From: Lachnospiraceae bacterium
Lineage (GTDB): Bacteria; Bacillota; Clostridia; Lachnospirales; Lachnospiraceae
Direction: 5' to 3'
NCBI GenBank assembly: GCA_022779165.1
Contig: JALFTO010000012.1
Location: forward strand, 1 to 41,737
DNA length: 41,737 bases
The translations under genes and the position numbers were made by a program. Below the pieces are notes generated by a model. It ran no database searches and was not told the DNA's origin. It saw only the letters and a list, made by a program, of their open reading frames with translations. This document shows positions 19,180-29,763 of the stretch, one piece after another (position 1 is the first letter of the stretch; every line of letters begins with the position of its first letter).

Positions 19180-20311
19180 TTGGTAGAATTTGATCAGATG
19201 AAGACAGAACTTCAGGCATACGAAACTCCATTAGCGGAAGTGAGGGATTCACTTTAACTTAGCGGATAAGGGAAAGCGGATCGAAGAATTGGAGCGGGAG
19301 ATGGAAGCACCGGGCTTCTGGGATGATCCCGATTACTCCAATCAGAAAATGAAAGAACTGAAGAACCTGAAGGATGTGGTGGAACTCTGTGACGGACTCT
19401 CACAGCAGTATGAGGATATCCAGACGCTGATCGAGATGGGTTACGAGGCGGAGGATCCTGATATGGTGCCGGAGGTACGTGAGGAACTGGATGAGTTTAT
19501 CAGACAGTTTGAGGATCTCAGGATCAGCACACTTCTTTCGGGAGAATATGATAAAAATAATGCAATCCTTAAGTTAAATGCGGGAGCAGGTGGAACGGAG
19601 AGTTGCGACTGGGCCGGAATGCTCTACCGTATGTATACCAGATGGGCGGAGAAACGTGGATTTTCCGTGGAAGTGCTCGACTATCTGGACGGGGATGAGG
19701 CGGGCATCAAGTCCGTAACCTTCCAGGTCAACGGGGAGAATGCATATGGCTACCTCAAATCAGAGAAAGGCGTGCACCGTCTGGTGCGGATTTCGCCTTT
19801 TAATGCACAGGGAAAGCGGCAGACATCCTTTGTATCGCTCGATGTCATGCCGGATATTGAGGAAGATCTTGATGTCGAGATCAACGATGATGATCTGCGC
19901 ATTGACACCTATCGAAGCAGTGGAGCCGGCGGACAGCATATCAATAAGACGTCCTCCGCGATCCGTATCACGCACCTTCCGACGGGCATCGTGGTACAGT
20001 GCCAGAATGAGCGAAGCCAGCACATGAACAAGGATAAAGCGATGCAGATGCTGAAAGCAAAGCTGTATCTCTTGAAGCAGGAGGAAAATGCACAGAAACT
20101 GTCCGGTATCAGAGGCGAAGTGAAGGAGATCGGATGGGGCAACCAGATCCGTTCCTACGTTATGCAACCCTACACGATGGTGAAGGATCACAGGACAGGA
20201 GCTGAGAGCAGTAACGTGGATGCGGTGATGGACGGGGCGATCGATCTGTTTATCAATGCGTATCTGAAATGGATCAACGACGGAGCAAAAGAGGGAAATT
20301 ATGGCGAATAA
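19180..20311 (+). CDS. prfB: peptide chain release factor 2, expressed by +1 programmed frameshift at CTT-TAA-C
   Basis: ORF1 TTG 19180 ...MVEFDQMKTELQAYETPLAEVRDSL-TAA(19255-57). The +1 frame reads N-LADKGKRIEELEREMEAPGFWDDP... with GAGGTESCDWAGMLYRMY and RSSGAGGQHINKTSSAIRITHLPTG (GGQ motif). Confidence 0.95.
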
Positions 20312-24399: not shown

Positions 24400-24745
24400 T
24401 ACGGTCAGAGGCAAAGACCGGGGAAATGCGATGAAGGAGACTCTTGTTACAGAAAGCGACAGGAATGCGGTGTCACCGACTGAGAGCACTGCTGGTGGGA
24501 AGTAATAAAGGGAACACTCCGGAGCAGATATCCTGAACAGCCGGATTGGTAAAAGTAGGGGTATACGTTGTGCGCGTTAAGCACAGAGAGTGGATAAGGC
24601 GGTCAAGCGGCTTGGGTCTGTATCGGATGAGATTTGATAACAGATAGAGCTGTCGGCTTATCAATGCGGGTGGTACCGCGGGTGATTGAACAAAAGATTT
24701 CCCGTCCCGGAATGCAGTTAATTGCGTTCCGGGATTTTTTTATTC
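24400..24745 (+). promoter_or_regulatory. T-box riboswitch leader of aspS-gatCAB
   Basis: gatgaaggagac (24430-24441), gagagcactgctggtgg distal loop, ggaacactccggagc, aaaagtagg, gcgggtggtaccgcg T-box sequence (about 24666-24680), terminator cccggaatgcagttaattgcgttccggg + T7 (about 24706-24741). Confidence 0.92.
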
Positions 24746-24794: not shown

Positions 24795-26543
24795 ATGAGC
24801 GCAAACATTTACAGAGACATGACATTGCAGCATATCGCGGAGAGTGATATCGGGAAGACCGTCAGGGTGGCCGGCTGGGTGGAAAACATCCGAGATCACG
24901 GCGGGGTATCCTTTATTGATCTGAGAGATATGTACGGCGTCCTTCAGGTGGTGATCCGCAAGACGGAACTGCTGAAAGGGATTGCGAAGGAGATGAGTGT
25001 ATCCATTCAGGGATTGATCGAGAAACGGGATGAGGAGACATACAATCCAAAGATCCCGACCGGAACGATTGAACTTGAGGCGCAGGAGATCACGGTGCTT
25101 GGCAAGGTCTATAAGCAGCTTCCTTTTGAGATCATGACCTCAAAGGAGACCAGGGAGGATGTCCGGTTAAAATACAGATACCTTGATCTGAGAAACCAGA
25201 AGGTAAAGGATAATATTATTTTCCGATCAAAAGTGATCGCATTCCTTCGGGAAAAGATGACAGAGATGGGATTTTTGGAGATTCAGACGCCGATCCTGTG
25301 TGCGTCCTCTCCGGAGGGGGCCAGAGACTATATTGTGCCTTCCCGCAAGTTCAAGGGCAAATTTTATGCGCTGCCCCAGGCACCGCAGCAGTATAAGCAG
25401 CTTCTGATGGTATCGGGGTTTGACAAATATTTTCAGATCGCGCCGTGTTTCCGTGATGAGGATGCAAGGGCGGACCGTTCCCCGGGAGAGTTCTATCAGC
25501 TTGATTTTGAGATGAGCTTTGCAACGCAGGAGGATGTGTTCCGTGTGGGTGAGAAGATTCTGGAGGCGACTTTCCGGAAATTTGCACCGGAGGGAGCGCA
25601 GATCACAGCGGCGCCGTTCCCTATCATCAGTTACAAGCAGGCGATGCTCGAGTTCGGGAGTGACAAGCCCGACCTGAGAAATCCGCTCAGAATTATTGAT
25701 GTGACAGAATTTTTCCAGAAATGTACCTTTAAGCCGTTCTTAAAAAAGACGGTGCGTGCGATCAAGGTTCACGCCGACATGTCAAAGGGCTTTCATGAGA
25801 AACTCCTTGATTTTGCCGTGTCCCTCGGCATGGGCGGTCTAGGCTATCTGGAAGTGGAGGAGGATCTGTCCTATAAGGGACCGATCGATAAATTTATTCC
25901 GGAGGAATATAAGAAGGAACTGGCTGAACTTGCGGGGCTTGAGGCGGGCGATACCATATTCTTTATCGCAGATAAAGAAGAACGTGCCTGCTATTATGCG
26001 GGACAGATCCGCAATGAGCTGGGAAAGAAGCTGGATCTGTACGAAAAGAATGCTTACCGTTTTTGCTATGTGAATGATTTTCCGATGTATGAGCTGGATC
26101 CGGAGACGAAGCAGTTGGGCTTCACCCACAATCCGTTCTCCATGCCGCAGGGCGGGCTGAAAGCGCTTGAGGAACAGGATCCGCTTAAGATCCTGGCTTA
26201 TCAGTATGACATCGTATGCAACGGCGTGGAGCTGTCCTCCGGCGCTGTGAGAAATCACGATATCGACATCATGGTCAAAGCGTTTGCGTTGGCAGGATAT
26301 GACGAGGAGACGCTCAAGAACAAGTTTGGCGCGCTGTATCAGGCGTTCCAGTTCGGCGCTCCGCCGCACTCAGGCATGGCACCCGGTGTGGACCGCATGA
26401 TCATGCTGCTTCGGAACGAGGAGAACATCCGCGAGGTGATCGCATTCCCGATGAACGGCAATGCGCAGGATCTGATGTGCGGCGCACCGAATGATGTGAC
26501 GGAGCAGCAGCTTCGTGAGGTGCACATCAAGGTGAGAGATTGA
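24795..26543 (+). CDS. aspS: aspartyl-tRNA synthetase, bacterial type
   Basis: VRVAGWVENIRDHGGVSFIDLRD; RYLDLRN; QAPQQYKQLLMVSGFDKYFQIAPCFRDEDARADR; GVDRMIMLL. Confidence 0.97.
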   Translation: MSANIYRDMTLQHIAESDIGKTVRVAGWVENIRDHGGVSFIDLRDMYGVLQVVIRKTELLKGIAKEMSVSIQGLIEKRDEETYNPKIPTGTIELEAQEITVLGKVYKQLPFEIMTSKETREDVRLKYRYLDLRNQKVKDNIIFRSKVIAFLREKMTEMGFLEIQTPILCASSPEGARDYIVPSRKFKGKFYALPQAPQQYKQLLMVSGFDKYFQIAPCFRDEDARADRSPGEFYQLDFEMSFATQEDVFRVGEKILEATFRKFAPEGAQITAAPFPIISYKQAMLEFGSDKPDLRNPLRIIDVTEFFQKCTFKPFLKKTVRAIKVHADMSKGFHEKLLDFAVSLGMGGLGYLEVEEDLSYKGPIDKFIPEEYKKELAELAGLEAGDTIFFIADKEERACYYAGQIRNELGKKLDLYEKNAYRFCYVNDFPMYELDPETKQLGFTHNPFSMPQGGLKALEEQDPLKILAYQYDIVCNGVELSSGAVRNHDIDIMVKAFALAGYDEETLKNKFGALYQAFQFGAPPHSGMAPGVDRMIMLLRNEENIREVIAFPMNGNAQDLMCGAPNDVTEQQLREVHIKVRD

Positions 26544-26555
26544 CGGAGGAAGAAA

Positions 26556-26849
26556 ATGGCAAATATCATTTCCGATGAGACAATAGAATATGTAGGCATT
26601 CTTGCCAAACTTGAACTCTCCGATGAGGAGAAGGAGCAGGCCAAGAAGGATATGGGCAGGATGCTCGATTATATCGATAAGCTGGGAGAACTGGACACGA
26701 CCGGCGTGGAACCGATGTCCCATGTTTTTCCTGTGGAGAATGTATTCCGTGAGGACGTGGTCACAAACGGAGATACCAGAGAGGAACTGTTGACAAACGC
26801 ACCGGGGGAGAAGGACGGTATGTTTATGGTGCCCCGGACATTTGAATAG
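26556..26849 (+). CDS. gatC: Asp/Glu-tRNA(Asn/Gln) amidotransferase subunit C
   Basis: [45 protein letters not shown]. Confidence 0.94.
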
Positions 26850-26862
26850 GAGGGCTCCCGGT

Positions 26863-28326
26863 ATGGACTTAAAACAGATGACGGCTGTAGAACTATCAGC
26901 TGCGATCAAGGACAAAAAAGTGACGGTGAGAGAGGCTGTGGAGGTTTCTCTTGACGCCATTGCAAAAAAAGAGGAAAGCCTGAACTGCTATGTGACTGTT
27001 GACAGGGAAGGCGCGTTGCAAAGAGCGGACGAAGTGCAGAAAAAAATGGATGACGGCACACTGACCGGACCGCTTGCCGGGGTGCCGGTTGCAGTCAAGG
27101 ACAATATGTGTACGAAGGGGATGCTCACGACCTGTTCCTCTAAGATACTCGGGAATTTTGTGCCCACTTTCACAGCGGATGCGGTGCTTCGGCTGGAAGA
27201 GGCGGGGGCAGTGATCCTCGGTAAGACGAATATGGATGAGTTTGCGATGGGGTCGACCACGGAGACATCCGCCTATGGTGTTACCAGGAATCCATGGAAT
27301 GAAGAGCATGTGCCGGGAGGATCTTCGGGCGGGTCGGCAGCCGCTGTGGCGGCAGGCGAATGCTTCTTTGCGCTCGGCTCCGACACCGGCGGTTCCATCA
27401 GACAGCCTGCGTCCTTCTGCGGTGTGGTGGGGATGAAGCCGACATACGGCACAGTTTCACGGTATGGATTGATCGCTTACGGTTCCTCACTCGATCAGAT
27501 CGGACCGCTCTGTAAGGATGTGACGGACTGCGCCACGATCCTGGAAGTCATTGCGGGACATGATTCCAAGGATTCCACTTCCATAAAGAGAGAGGATGCA
27601 GACTTTACTTCCGCACTGCAGGAGGATGTTACGGGGATGAAGATCGGCATTCCGAGAGACTATTTCGGAGAGGGACTTGATCCCGAGGTAAAAGCTTCCG
27701 TACTGGCAGCGGCAGAGCTTTTGAAGGCAAAGGGCGCTATGGTGGAAGAGTTTGACTTAAGCCTGGTGGATTATGCCATTCCGGCATATTATACGATCGC
27801 TGCGGCGGAGGCGAGTTCCAATCTGGAACGCTTTGACGGGATCAAATACGGTTACCGTGCCGAGGATTGTGAGGAACTCCATCAGATGTACAAGAAGACG
27901 CGCTCCCGGGGCTTCGGCGCGGAGGTCAAGCGCCGCATTATGCTGGGCTCGTTTGTTTTAAGTTCCGGTTATTACGATGCGTATTATCTGAAAGCGCTCC
28001 GTGTAAAGGCGCTGATAAAAAAGGCGTTTGATGATGCATTTTCCAAATATGACGTGATACTGGGGCCGGCGGCGCCCACGACGGCACCGGAACTCGGAAA
28101 GAGTCTACAGGATCCGATCCGGATGTATCTGGGCGATATCTATACGATATCCGTCAATCTGGCAGGACTTCCGGGAATCACAGTTCCCTGCGGTATGGAC
28201 AGCAAAGGGCTGCCGATCGGTGTACAGCTCATCGGGGACTGCTTCCAGGAGAAGAAGCTTTTGCGGATGGCATACACCTATGAGAAAGCAAGAGGACCCT
28301 TCGGTCTGGATAAGGAGGGCAGATAG
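26863..28326 (+). CDS. gatA: Asp/Glu-tRNA(Asn/Gln) amidotransferase subunit A
   Basis: Amidase signature VPGGSSGGSAAAVAAGECFFALGSDTGGSIRQPASFCGVVGMKPTYGTVSRYG; start ATG 26863. Confidence 0.97.
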   Translation: MDLKQMTAVELSAAIKDKKVTVREAVEVSLDAIAKKEESLNCYVTVDREGALQRADEVQKKMDDGTLTGPLAGVPVAVKDNMCTKGMLTTCSSKILGNFVPTFTADAVLRLEEAGAVILGKTNMDEFAMGSTTETSAYGVTRNPWNEEHVPGGSSGGSAAAVAAGECFFALGSDTGGSIRQPASFCGVVGMKPTYGTVSRYGLIAYGSSLDQIGPLCKDVTDCATILEVIAGHDSKDSTSIKREDADFTSALQEDVTGMKIGIPRDYFGEGLDPEVKASVLAAAELLKAKGAMVEEFDLSLVDYAIPAYYTIAAAEASSNLERFDGIKYGYRAEDCEELHQMYKKTRSRGFGAEVKRRIMLGSFVLSSGYYDAYYLKALRVKALIKKAFDDAFSKYDVILGPAAPTTAPELGKSLQDPIRMYLGDIYTISVNLAGLPGITVPCGMDSKGLPIGVQLIGDCFQEKKLLRMAYTYEKARGPFGLDKEGR

Positions 28327-29763
28327 ATGGCACGAGAATATGAGACAGTGATCGGTCTGGAGGTTCATGTGGAGCTTGCGACCAAAACCAAGATTTTCTG
28401 CGGCTGCTCCACGGCGTTCGGCGGAGAGCCGAATACTCATACCTGTCCGGTCTGTACCGGTATGCCGGGATCACTTCCGGTATTAAATAAGAAGGTACTC
28501 GAATATGCCGTGGCAGTAGGTCTGGCGGCAAACTGCAAAATCACGCAGTATTGTAAATTTGACAGGAAGAATTATTTCTATCCCGACAATCCTCAGAATT
28601 ATCAGATTTCCCAACTTTATCTGCCGATCTGCCGCGACGGTTATGTGGAGATTATGACGGAGAGCGGCACCAAGAAAGTCGGCATTCATGAGATCCATAT
28701 GGAGGAGGATGCGGGCAAGCTGATTCATGACGAGTGGGAAGACTGTACACTGGTGGACTATAACCGTTCCGGTGTGCCGCTGATTGAGATCGTGTCGGAG
28801 CCGGATATGCGCAGCGCCGATGAGGTCATTGCTTATCTGGAGAAGCTGCGGCTGATGATCCAGTATCTCGGCGCTTCCGACTGCAAACTGCAAGAGGGCT
28901 CCATGCGTGCGGACGTGAATCTGTCTGTGCGTGAGGTGGGAGCAAAAGAGTTCGGAACCAGAACAGAGATGAAGAACCTGAATTCCTTCCGGGCAATCGC
29001 CAGAGCGATCGAAGACGAGAGAGCACGTCAGATCGATCTGCTTGAAGCGGGCGAGGCAGTCGTGCAGGAAACCAGGAGATGGGATGACGGCAAGGGTGTG
29101 TCTTATGCTATGCGCTCCAAGGAGGATGCGCAGGACTACCGGTATTTCCCGGATCCCGATCTGACGCCGGTGCATGTGAGCGATGAGTGGCTTGAGCAGA
29201 TCCGCGCATCACAGCCGGAATTTCGTGAGGAGAAGATAGAGCGTTATCGGCGTGAATTTGATATCCCGGATTATGACATCGAGATCATCACGGGCGCCAA
29301 GCGGATGGCGGATCTGTTCGAGGAAACGGTGGCGCTGGGAGCCGAGCCCAAGAAGGTGTCCAACTGGCTCATGGGAGAAACGATGCGTCTGATGAAAGAG
29401 ACAGAGACGGACGCAGCGGATTTGTGCTTCACACCGGGACATCTTGCGAAGCTGATCTCGCTGGTGGACGCAAAGGCAATCACCAACACCGTGGCGAAAG
29501 AGGTCTTCGAGGTGATGTTTGCAAAGGATATCGATCCCGAAAGTTACGTTGAGGAAAAGGGCTTAAAGACCGTGAATGACGAGGGCGCACTGCGGGCGAC
29601 AGTGGAGCGCGTGATTGCGGAGAATCCCCAGTCGGTTTCCGATTATCTCGGCGGCAAAGAGAAAGCCATCGGATTCCTGGTAGGGCAGACGATGAAGGCG
29701 ATGAAAGGAAAGGCTGATCCCGGATCGGTAAATACATTGTTAAAAGAACTCCTTTCCAAATAG
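28327..29763 (+). CDS. gatB: Asp/Glu-tRNA(Asn/Gln) amidotransferase subunit B
   Basis: YETVIGLEVHVELATKTKIFCGCSTAFG; YFYPDNPQNYQISQ; MRADVNLSVRE. Confidence 0.97.
   Translation: MAREYETVIGLEVHVELATKTKIFCGCSTAFGGEPNTHTCPVCTGMPGSLPVLNKKVLEYAVAVGLAANCKITQYCKFDRKNYFYPDNPQNYQISQLYLPICRDGYVEIMTESGTKKVGIHEIHMEEDAGKLIHDEWEDCTLVDYNRSGVPLIEIVSEPDMRSADEVIAYLEKLRLMIQYLGASDCKLQEGSMRADVNLSVREVGAKEFGTRTEMKNLNSFRAIARAIEDERARQIDLLEAGEAVVQETRRWDDGKGVSYAMRSKEDAQDYRYFPDPDLTPVHVSDEWLEQIRASQPEFREEKIERYRREFDIPDYDIEIITGAKRMADLFEETVALGAEPKKVSNWLMGETMRLMKETETDAADLCFTPGHLAKLISLVDAKAITNTVAKEVFEVMFAKDIDPESYVEEKGLKTVNDEGALRATVERVIAENPQSVSDYLGGKEKAIGFLVGQTMKAMKGKADPGSVNTLLKELLSK

Follow-up and report, generated by a model that had tools for sequence, protein, structure and literature searches.

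T-box leaders respond to uncharged tRNA, which bridges the specifier codon and the UGGN bulge and thereby favors the antiterminator (PMC7583486). A 2008 survey reported no T-boxes upstream of amidotransferase genes (PMC2494555). In Clostridium acetobutylicum, according to two later papers (PMC4206432, PMC4052509) that cite the original work (Saad 2012, 2013), an operon encoding AspRS and GatCAB is preceded by a T-box whose Asn codon overlaps a Glu codon. Dual routes, with GatCAB and an AspRS serving tRNA(Asn) present alongside both AsnRS and GlnRS, are described for Deinococcus/Thermus and Bdellovibrio, with an extra archaeal-type AspRS being used in D. radiodurans and T. thermophilus (PMC4206432).

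Here, we describe a leader located in a 41,737-nucleotide stretch of DNA from a Lachnospiraceae bacterium (contig JALFTO010000012.1; hereafter, the window) that is very probably a transcription-attenuating T-box sensing uncharged tRNA(Asn) via an AAC codon and switching on the transamidation operon aspS2-gatCAB, the G before AAC being a structural base. As in C. acetobutylicum, to the extent that the cited passages describe that system, the T-box controls AspRS and GatCAB in a genome with AsnRS and an extra AspRS, and an Asn codon overlaps a Glu codon; in contrast to the same account, GlnRS and AsnA are present in the window genome, the G of the overlap is a helix base, and one gatB was found in the assembly as opposed to the two GatCABs there. 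The coexistence of AsnRS and GlnRS with GatCAB and an AspRS serving tRNA(Asn) is shared with Deinococcus/Thermus and Bdellovibrio, but the route in the window is under an Asn-codon T-box, its extra AspRS is of the bacterial type, and AsnA is present as well. Compared with the canonical long Stem I T-box (PMC7583486), the specifier, the conserved 3' purine, the UGGN bulge, the terminator/antiterminator and the A-GA-rich distal Stem I are all retained, whereas a covarying Watson-Crick helix takes the place of the AGUA/GAA strands of the S-turn, with the codon in a 1x4 bulge. The best explanation is that the Asn-starvation switch on a transamidation operon is a known one, of the C. acetobutylicum kind, and that the specifier-loop variant is new, judged by the open-access literature searched.

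Identity and extent of the leader

The leader was matched by RF00230 over the full length of the model (Table 1), bearing out the preliminary description of this DNA, which had placed a T-box before aspS-gatCAB. Because the score of the leader, 70.0 bits, is below the RF00230 gathering score of 93 bits, the default-threshold Rfam search lacked this match, and a relaxed search was used; the RF00230 search yielded nine T-boxes in the assembly, with the window leader among them. Besides the covariance match, the leader possesses the specifier with its 3' purine, the UGGN bulge and a competing terminator, but not the S-turn (loop E: AGUA / GAA), in place of which there is a covarying CUC/GGG helix. 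The S-turn is typical of long Stem I and is not required, and the leader is classed as a T-box on its other features. The shortfall of 70 bits against 93 could also be the mark of a decayed or non-functional relic. However, the missing S-turn together with a long insertion accounts for the low score, while Stem I, the T-box sequence, the terminator and the operon are all intact and the leader is conserved, with compensatory changes, in about 40% of the family genomes, which makes a relic very improbable.

The genes 3' of the T-box, all on the same strand, are arranged in the order aspS-gatC-gatA-gatB. A small GGUC..GACC hairpin (window 24403-24419) lies directly 5' of the leader, and no promoter of the leader was identified by a consensus scan of the + strand.

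Table 1. Features of the T-box leader and of the operon that follows it (window positions)
Feature	Positions	Strand	Basis or remark
T-box leader	24422..24712	+	RF00230, 70.0 bits, E 3.6e-15, model 1-219/219 (cmscan)
Stem I	24428..24525	+	Model R1 (101 positions) matches 24428-24528 at 113.5 bits, a score that is not independent, the R1 training set including the window sequence
Helix below the specifier, 5' strand (GGAG)	24436..24439	+	Pairs with CUCC 24517-24520
Single A opposite the specifier bulge	24440..24440	+	Alignment fold and single-sequence fold
Covarying helix in place of the AGUA side of the loop-E/S-turn, 5' strand (CUCU)	24441..24444	+	Covariation counts
AGGG, 3' strand of the covarying helix	24509..24512	+	G24512 (first base of the proposed GAA) pairs with C24441
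AAC specifier codon (Asn)	24513..24515	+	Rfam alignment; 130/130 distinct paired-type and 27/27 loop-E leaders
Purine 3' of the specifier	24516..24516	+	A in 121/130, G in 9/130 leaders
Helix below the specifier, 3' strand (CUCC)	24517..24520	+	Pairs with GGAG
T-box sequence GGGUGGUACCGCG	24668..24680	+	Contains UGGU (24671-24674; N=U)
Intrinsic terminator with a stem of 14 bp and a U run	24704..24741	+	Competes with the antiterminator
aspS, bacterial-type AspRS, second genome copy	24795..26543	+	Probably non-discriminating
gatC	26556..26849	+	TIGR00135, 94.7 bits (cut-off 47.1)
gatA	26842..28326	+	TIGR00132, 640.7 bits (cut-off 481.1)
gatB	28327..29763	+	TIGR00133, 578.4 bits; no other gatB found in the assembly

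Elsewhere in the window, prfB (RF2; 19180-20311) is split as in programmed +1 frameshifting, with a short frame, MVEFDQMKTELQAYETPLAEVRDSL, that ends at UAA and a main frame that resumes in +1. The slippery site is CUU UAA C (about 19253-19259), the usual one being CUU UGA C; RF1 recognizes UAA just as RF2 does, a property that would blunt prfB autoregulation.

The specifier codon and the adjoining helix

With the window AspS as the query, 80 named loci were fetched, among which the leaders are of two builds, a paired type and the textbook loop-E type. Alignment A1 consists of 34 leaders of the window's build, with GGAGACUC..GGGAACACUCCGGAGC, and alignment A2 of 27 leaders with the textbook loop-E motif AGUA..GAAUAACAC; the pattern-based classing misplaces a few loci, and the counts given here rest on A1 and A2. 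The covariance model R1, built from A1, produced matches in 164 of 299 Lachnospiraceae genomes at E<=0.001, weak matches to other T-boxes included, and at E<=1e-9 in roughly 40% of the sampled family genomes (n=120). From the R1 matches, 98 leaders were taken, which together with A1 amount to 130 distinct sequences.

Under the TBDB rule (PMC7778990), the specifier bulge is counted from its 3' end and its nucleotides 2-4 are taken as the specifier; applied to the window leader, the rule gives AAC, in frame +0. The RF00230 alignment likewise places AAC opposite the model codon, and the codon is invariant in the leaders of both builds, which is not chance. The preliminary description, made from the letters alone, had arrived at the same Asn codon within GGGAACACUCCGGAGC, a string that is indeed present in the leader, and was also right that AGUA is lacking on the 5' side of the specifier loop; its position for GGAG was exact, but its coordinates on the 3' side were 10 too high, so that AAC was put at 24523-24525 and CUCC at 24527-24530.

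RNAalifold, run on the MAFFT alignment A1, paired the 5' CUC (24441-24443) with the 3' GGG (24510-24512) and left a single A opposite AACA (24513-24516 in the window leader), that is, a 1x4 bulge. The single-sequence fold of Stem I agrees with this helix; the z-score of the fold alone is unremarkable, and the support for the helix accordingly comes from covariation. In counts anchored on the 5' end and AAC only, without structure-aware alignment, the three pairs are present in 127, 130 and 128 of the 130 leaders, compared with only 59-68% paired in the control, where the 3' partners were slid by one or two bases; alignment A3, which leans to the model, yields the same pairing. The third pair varies among the leaders (CG, UA, GU, GC, UG and AU). 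Where the base before AAC is U (L218), its partner is G and a G-U pair is kept; where it is C (L080 and L233), another C lies opposite, the pair is lost and GAA is not regained; AAC is unchanged in all three leaders. Because the pairs stand in nearly all leaders, we take the G before AAC to be the closing base of the helix.

Three further aspS-gatCAB leaders (L081, L085 and L090) carry GAGAACAC; L085 shows the CUC/GGG helix in a different covarying form, its CUC being perfectly paired with GAG. A paired-type loop without the S-turn, with the codon GAC, is found before hisS in another Clostridia family (L259:1501-1602 and L263:1501-1599), and therefore the build is not tied to one codon. In these two leaders, GAC overlaps CAC (GACAC), possibly an Asp/His double reading of a hisS-aspS operon.

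The chances are about even that leaders of this build form a distinct and widespread T-box subclass, in which a Watson-Crick helix replaces the Stem I S-turn and the codon sits in a 1x4 bulge, common to the bacterial- and archaeal-type AspRS-gatCAB operons of Lachnospiraceae (AAC), aspS leaders of other Clostridia families, and hisS leaders (GAC). No description of an S-turn replaced by a covarying helix was found in the open-access papers searched, subscription papers and TBDB being outside the search.

Choice of tRNA

The arrangement of the leader suggests how it would operate. When Asn-tRNA(Asn) falls, the GUU anticodon of uncharged tRNA(Asn) would pair with AAC, which lies in the 1x4 bulge, AACA facing a single A, with a Watson-Crick helix on either side, and the 3' GCCA end of the tRNA would pair with UGGU. 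Bridging of the two sites would stabilize the antiterminator over the terminator, so that the operon is read and supplies a two-step route, Asp-tRNA(Asn) being made first and then converted to Asn-tRNA(Asn) by transamidation. Both the binding of tRNA and antitermination by the leader are predictions from sequence.

Since the first gene of the operon encodes AspRS, the leader might instead sense tRNA(Asp) through GAC or GAU, as an ordinary aspS leader would; aspS T-boxes with Asp codons exist. Neither codon is present in the specifier bulge, where AAC is invariant in 157 leaders; a GAC or GAU in that place was what the preliminary description had named as fatal to its own reading, and the AAC reading stands. 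Furthermore, paired-type leaders with GAC do occur, before hisS (L259 and L263), which shows that the codon is read in the bulge register. A response to tRNA(Asp) is thus extremely unlikely and, at the level of sequence, already refuted, barring a register error of several bases.

The preliminary description had also raised the possibility that GAA, which overlaps AAC by a one-base shift, serves as a Glu codon, so that in GAAC (24512-24515 in the window, and present in 127/130 paired-type leaders) tRNA(Asn) would read AAC and tRNA(Glu) would read GAA. The C. acetobutylicum operon is a precedent, with both tRNAs reported bound in the passage that cites the original work (PMC4052509, citing Saad 2013). 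The discriminator bases are relevant here. In the window genome, tRNA(Asn)GUU has G73 and a U1-A72 pair, the latter associated with GatCAB substrates (PMC4206432), whereas A73 is found in tRNA(Glu)UUC and G73 in tRNA(Glu)CUC; the tRNA list was drawn from loci and is incomplete, with no tRNA(Asp) seen in it. UGGU of the window leader would thus form a Watson-Crick pair with A73 of tRNA(Glu)UUC and only a wobble pair with G73 of tRNA(Asn). N=U, considered as evidence for tRNA(Glu), proved non-diagnostic and does not decide between Asn and Glu, because the same U/G73 wobble is used by Trp T-boxes, both in this genome (L003 and L006, each with the codon UGG and UGGU, the tRNA(Trp) having G73) and in 46% of the Trp T-boxes in the TBDB paper (PMC7778990); leaders with UAAC also mostly carry U.

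Several observations run against the double reading. G24512 is paired with C24441 (a pair standing in 127/130 leaders), so that the two codons are not both free, although the pair could still open on binding; moreover, in L218 this base and its partner have both changed, giving a G-U pair, and the leaders with CAAC lose the pair without regaining GAA. The genes controlled remain the same when GAA is missing, as the loop-E leaders L065 and L077, with UAAC, and the leader L080, with CAAC, all control aspS-gatCAB. Some leaders with GAAC carry UGGC (L144, L158, L177, L197 and L215 of Lachnospiraceae; L265, L269 and L274 of other Clostridia families), which pairs with G73 of tRNA(Asn) and would be mismatched with any tRNA(Glu) that has A73; UGGC leaders, too, stand before operons of this kind. 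Finally, GlnRS is over the cut-off in 107/120 Lachnospiraceae genomes and present in the window genome, and hence Gln can be supplied without GatCAB, there is no demand for Gln to be coupled to Glu, and sensing of tRNA(Glu) would have little purpose. Recognition of both tRNAs is, on this evidence, unlikely. The Asn-specific reading is well supported, and the leader appears to be ordinary in kind, with a structural variant.

Two kinds of AspRS and the role of the operon

Among the 98 leaders, 33 precede an aspS of the window type and 60 precede a different gene, for an archaeal-type aspartate--tRNA(Asn) ligase, with 5 not assigned by comparison. A 374-aa piece of the product of one such different gene matched NF003483, aspartate--tRNA(Asn) ligase, at 452 bits (cut-off 353). 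In the 9 long loci examined, seven archaeal-type and two bacterial-type, gatC, gatA and gatB follow in every case. Within the 80 named loci, gatCAB adjoins aspS in all 33 A1 loci but in 2 of the 26 assessable A2 loci. The A2 loci include L041, L050, L066, L091 and L093, where a loop-E AAC T-box precedes aspS with no gatCAB behind it, leaving AspRS alone under an Asn-type T-box.

Two bacterial-type AspRS genes were identified in the window genome, on G000:C144 and G000:C105, the copy on C105 adjoining hisS. The extra AspRS copy, the gatCAB linkage and the Asn T-box suggest that the window AspRS is non-discriminating and charges tRNA(Asn). The Asn reading fits because the same codon and loop serve both bacterial- and archaeal-type AspRS, and the leader shared with aspartate--tRNA(Asn) ligase operons is the best indirect support for the action of the window AspRS on tRNA(Asn). 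The earlier proposal of an Asn codon before an AspRS-GatCAB operon making Asn-tRNA(Asn) is supported.

The assembly is 2.23 Mb in size and 83% complete. Contrary to the expectation that asnS and glnS would be absent, profile searches detected AsnRS (646 bits) and GlnRS (723 bits) in the genome, along with AsnA (362 bits). Transamidation as the sole route to Asn was considered when AsnB seemed absent (none found over the cut-off in this 83% complete assembly) and was dropped, AsnA being present. Across Lachnospiraceae, AsnRS is over the cut-off in 90/120 genomes, and a link between the T-box and the absence of AsnRS was rejected as well (T-box in 13/30 genomes lacking AsnRS vs 37/90 having it, Fisher p 0.83, for matches at E<=1e-9). 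The remaining T-boxes detected in the window assembly all lie away from the asnS and asnA positions. The job of GatCAB here is likely to be the production of Asn-tRNA(Asn). Because AsnA and AsnRS are present, the transamidation route is redundant in this genome, and the operon looks like a reserve that is induced on Asn starvation.

The case of this leader is a caution against inferring two-codon T-boxes solely from overlapping codons, the overlap base being a covarying stem base. The role ascribed to the S-turn is the avoidance of clashes with tRNA modifications, and tRNA(Asn) generally carries t6A37; should the proposed subclass prove true, T-boxes can do without the S-turn even for tRNA(Asn), and the S-turn-less specifier loop poses a concrete structural question. 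One T-box build is found on two kinds of AspRS, bacterial- and archaeal-type, which would share the job of making Asp-tRNA(Asn). For Lachnospiraceae, where a GatCAB route under T-box control is often found together with AsnRS and GlnRS, the operon would represent a testable backup against asparagine starvation.
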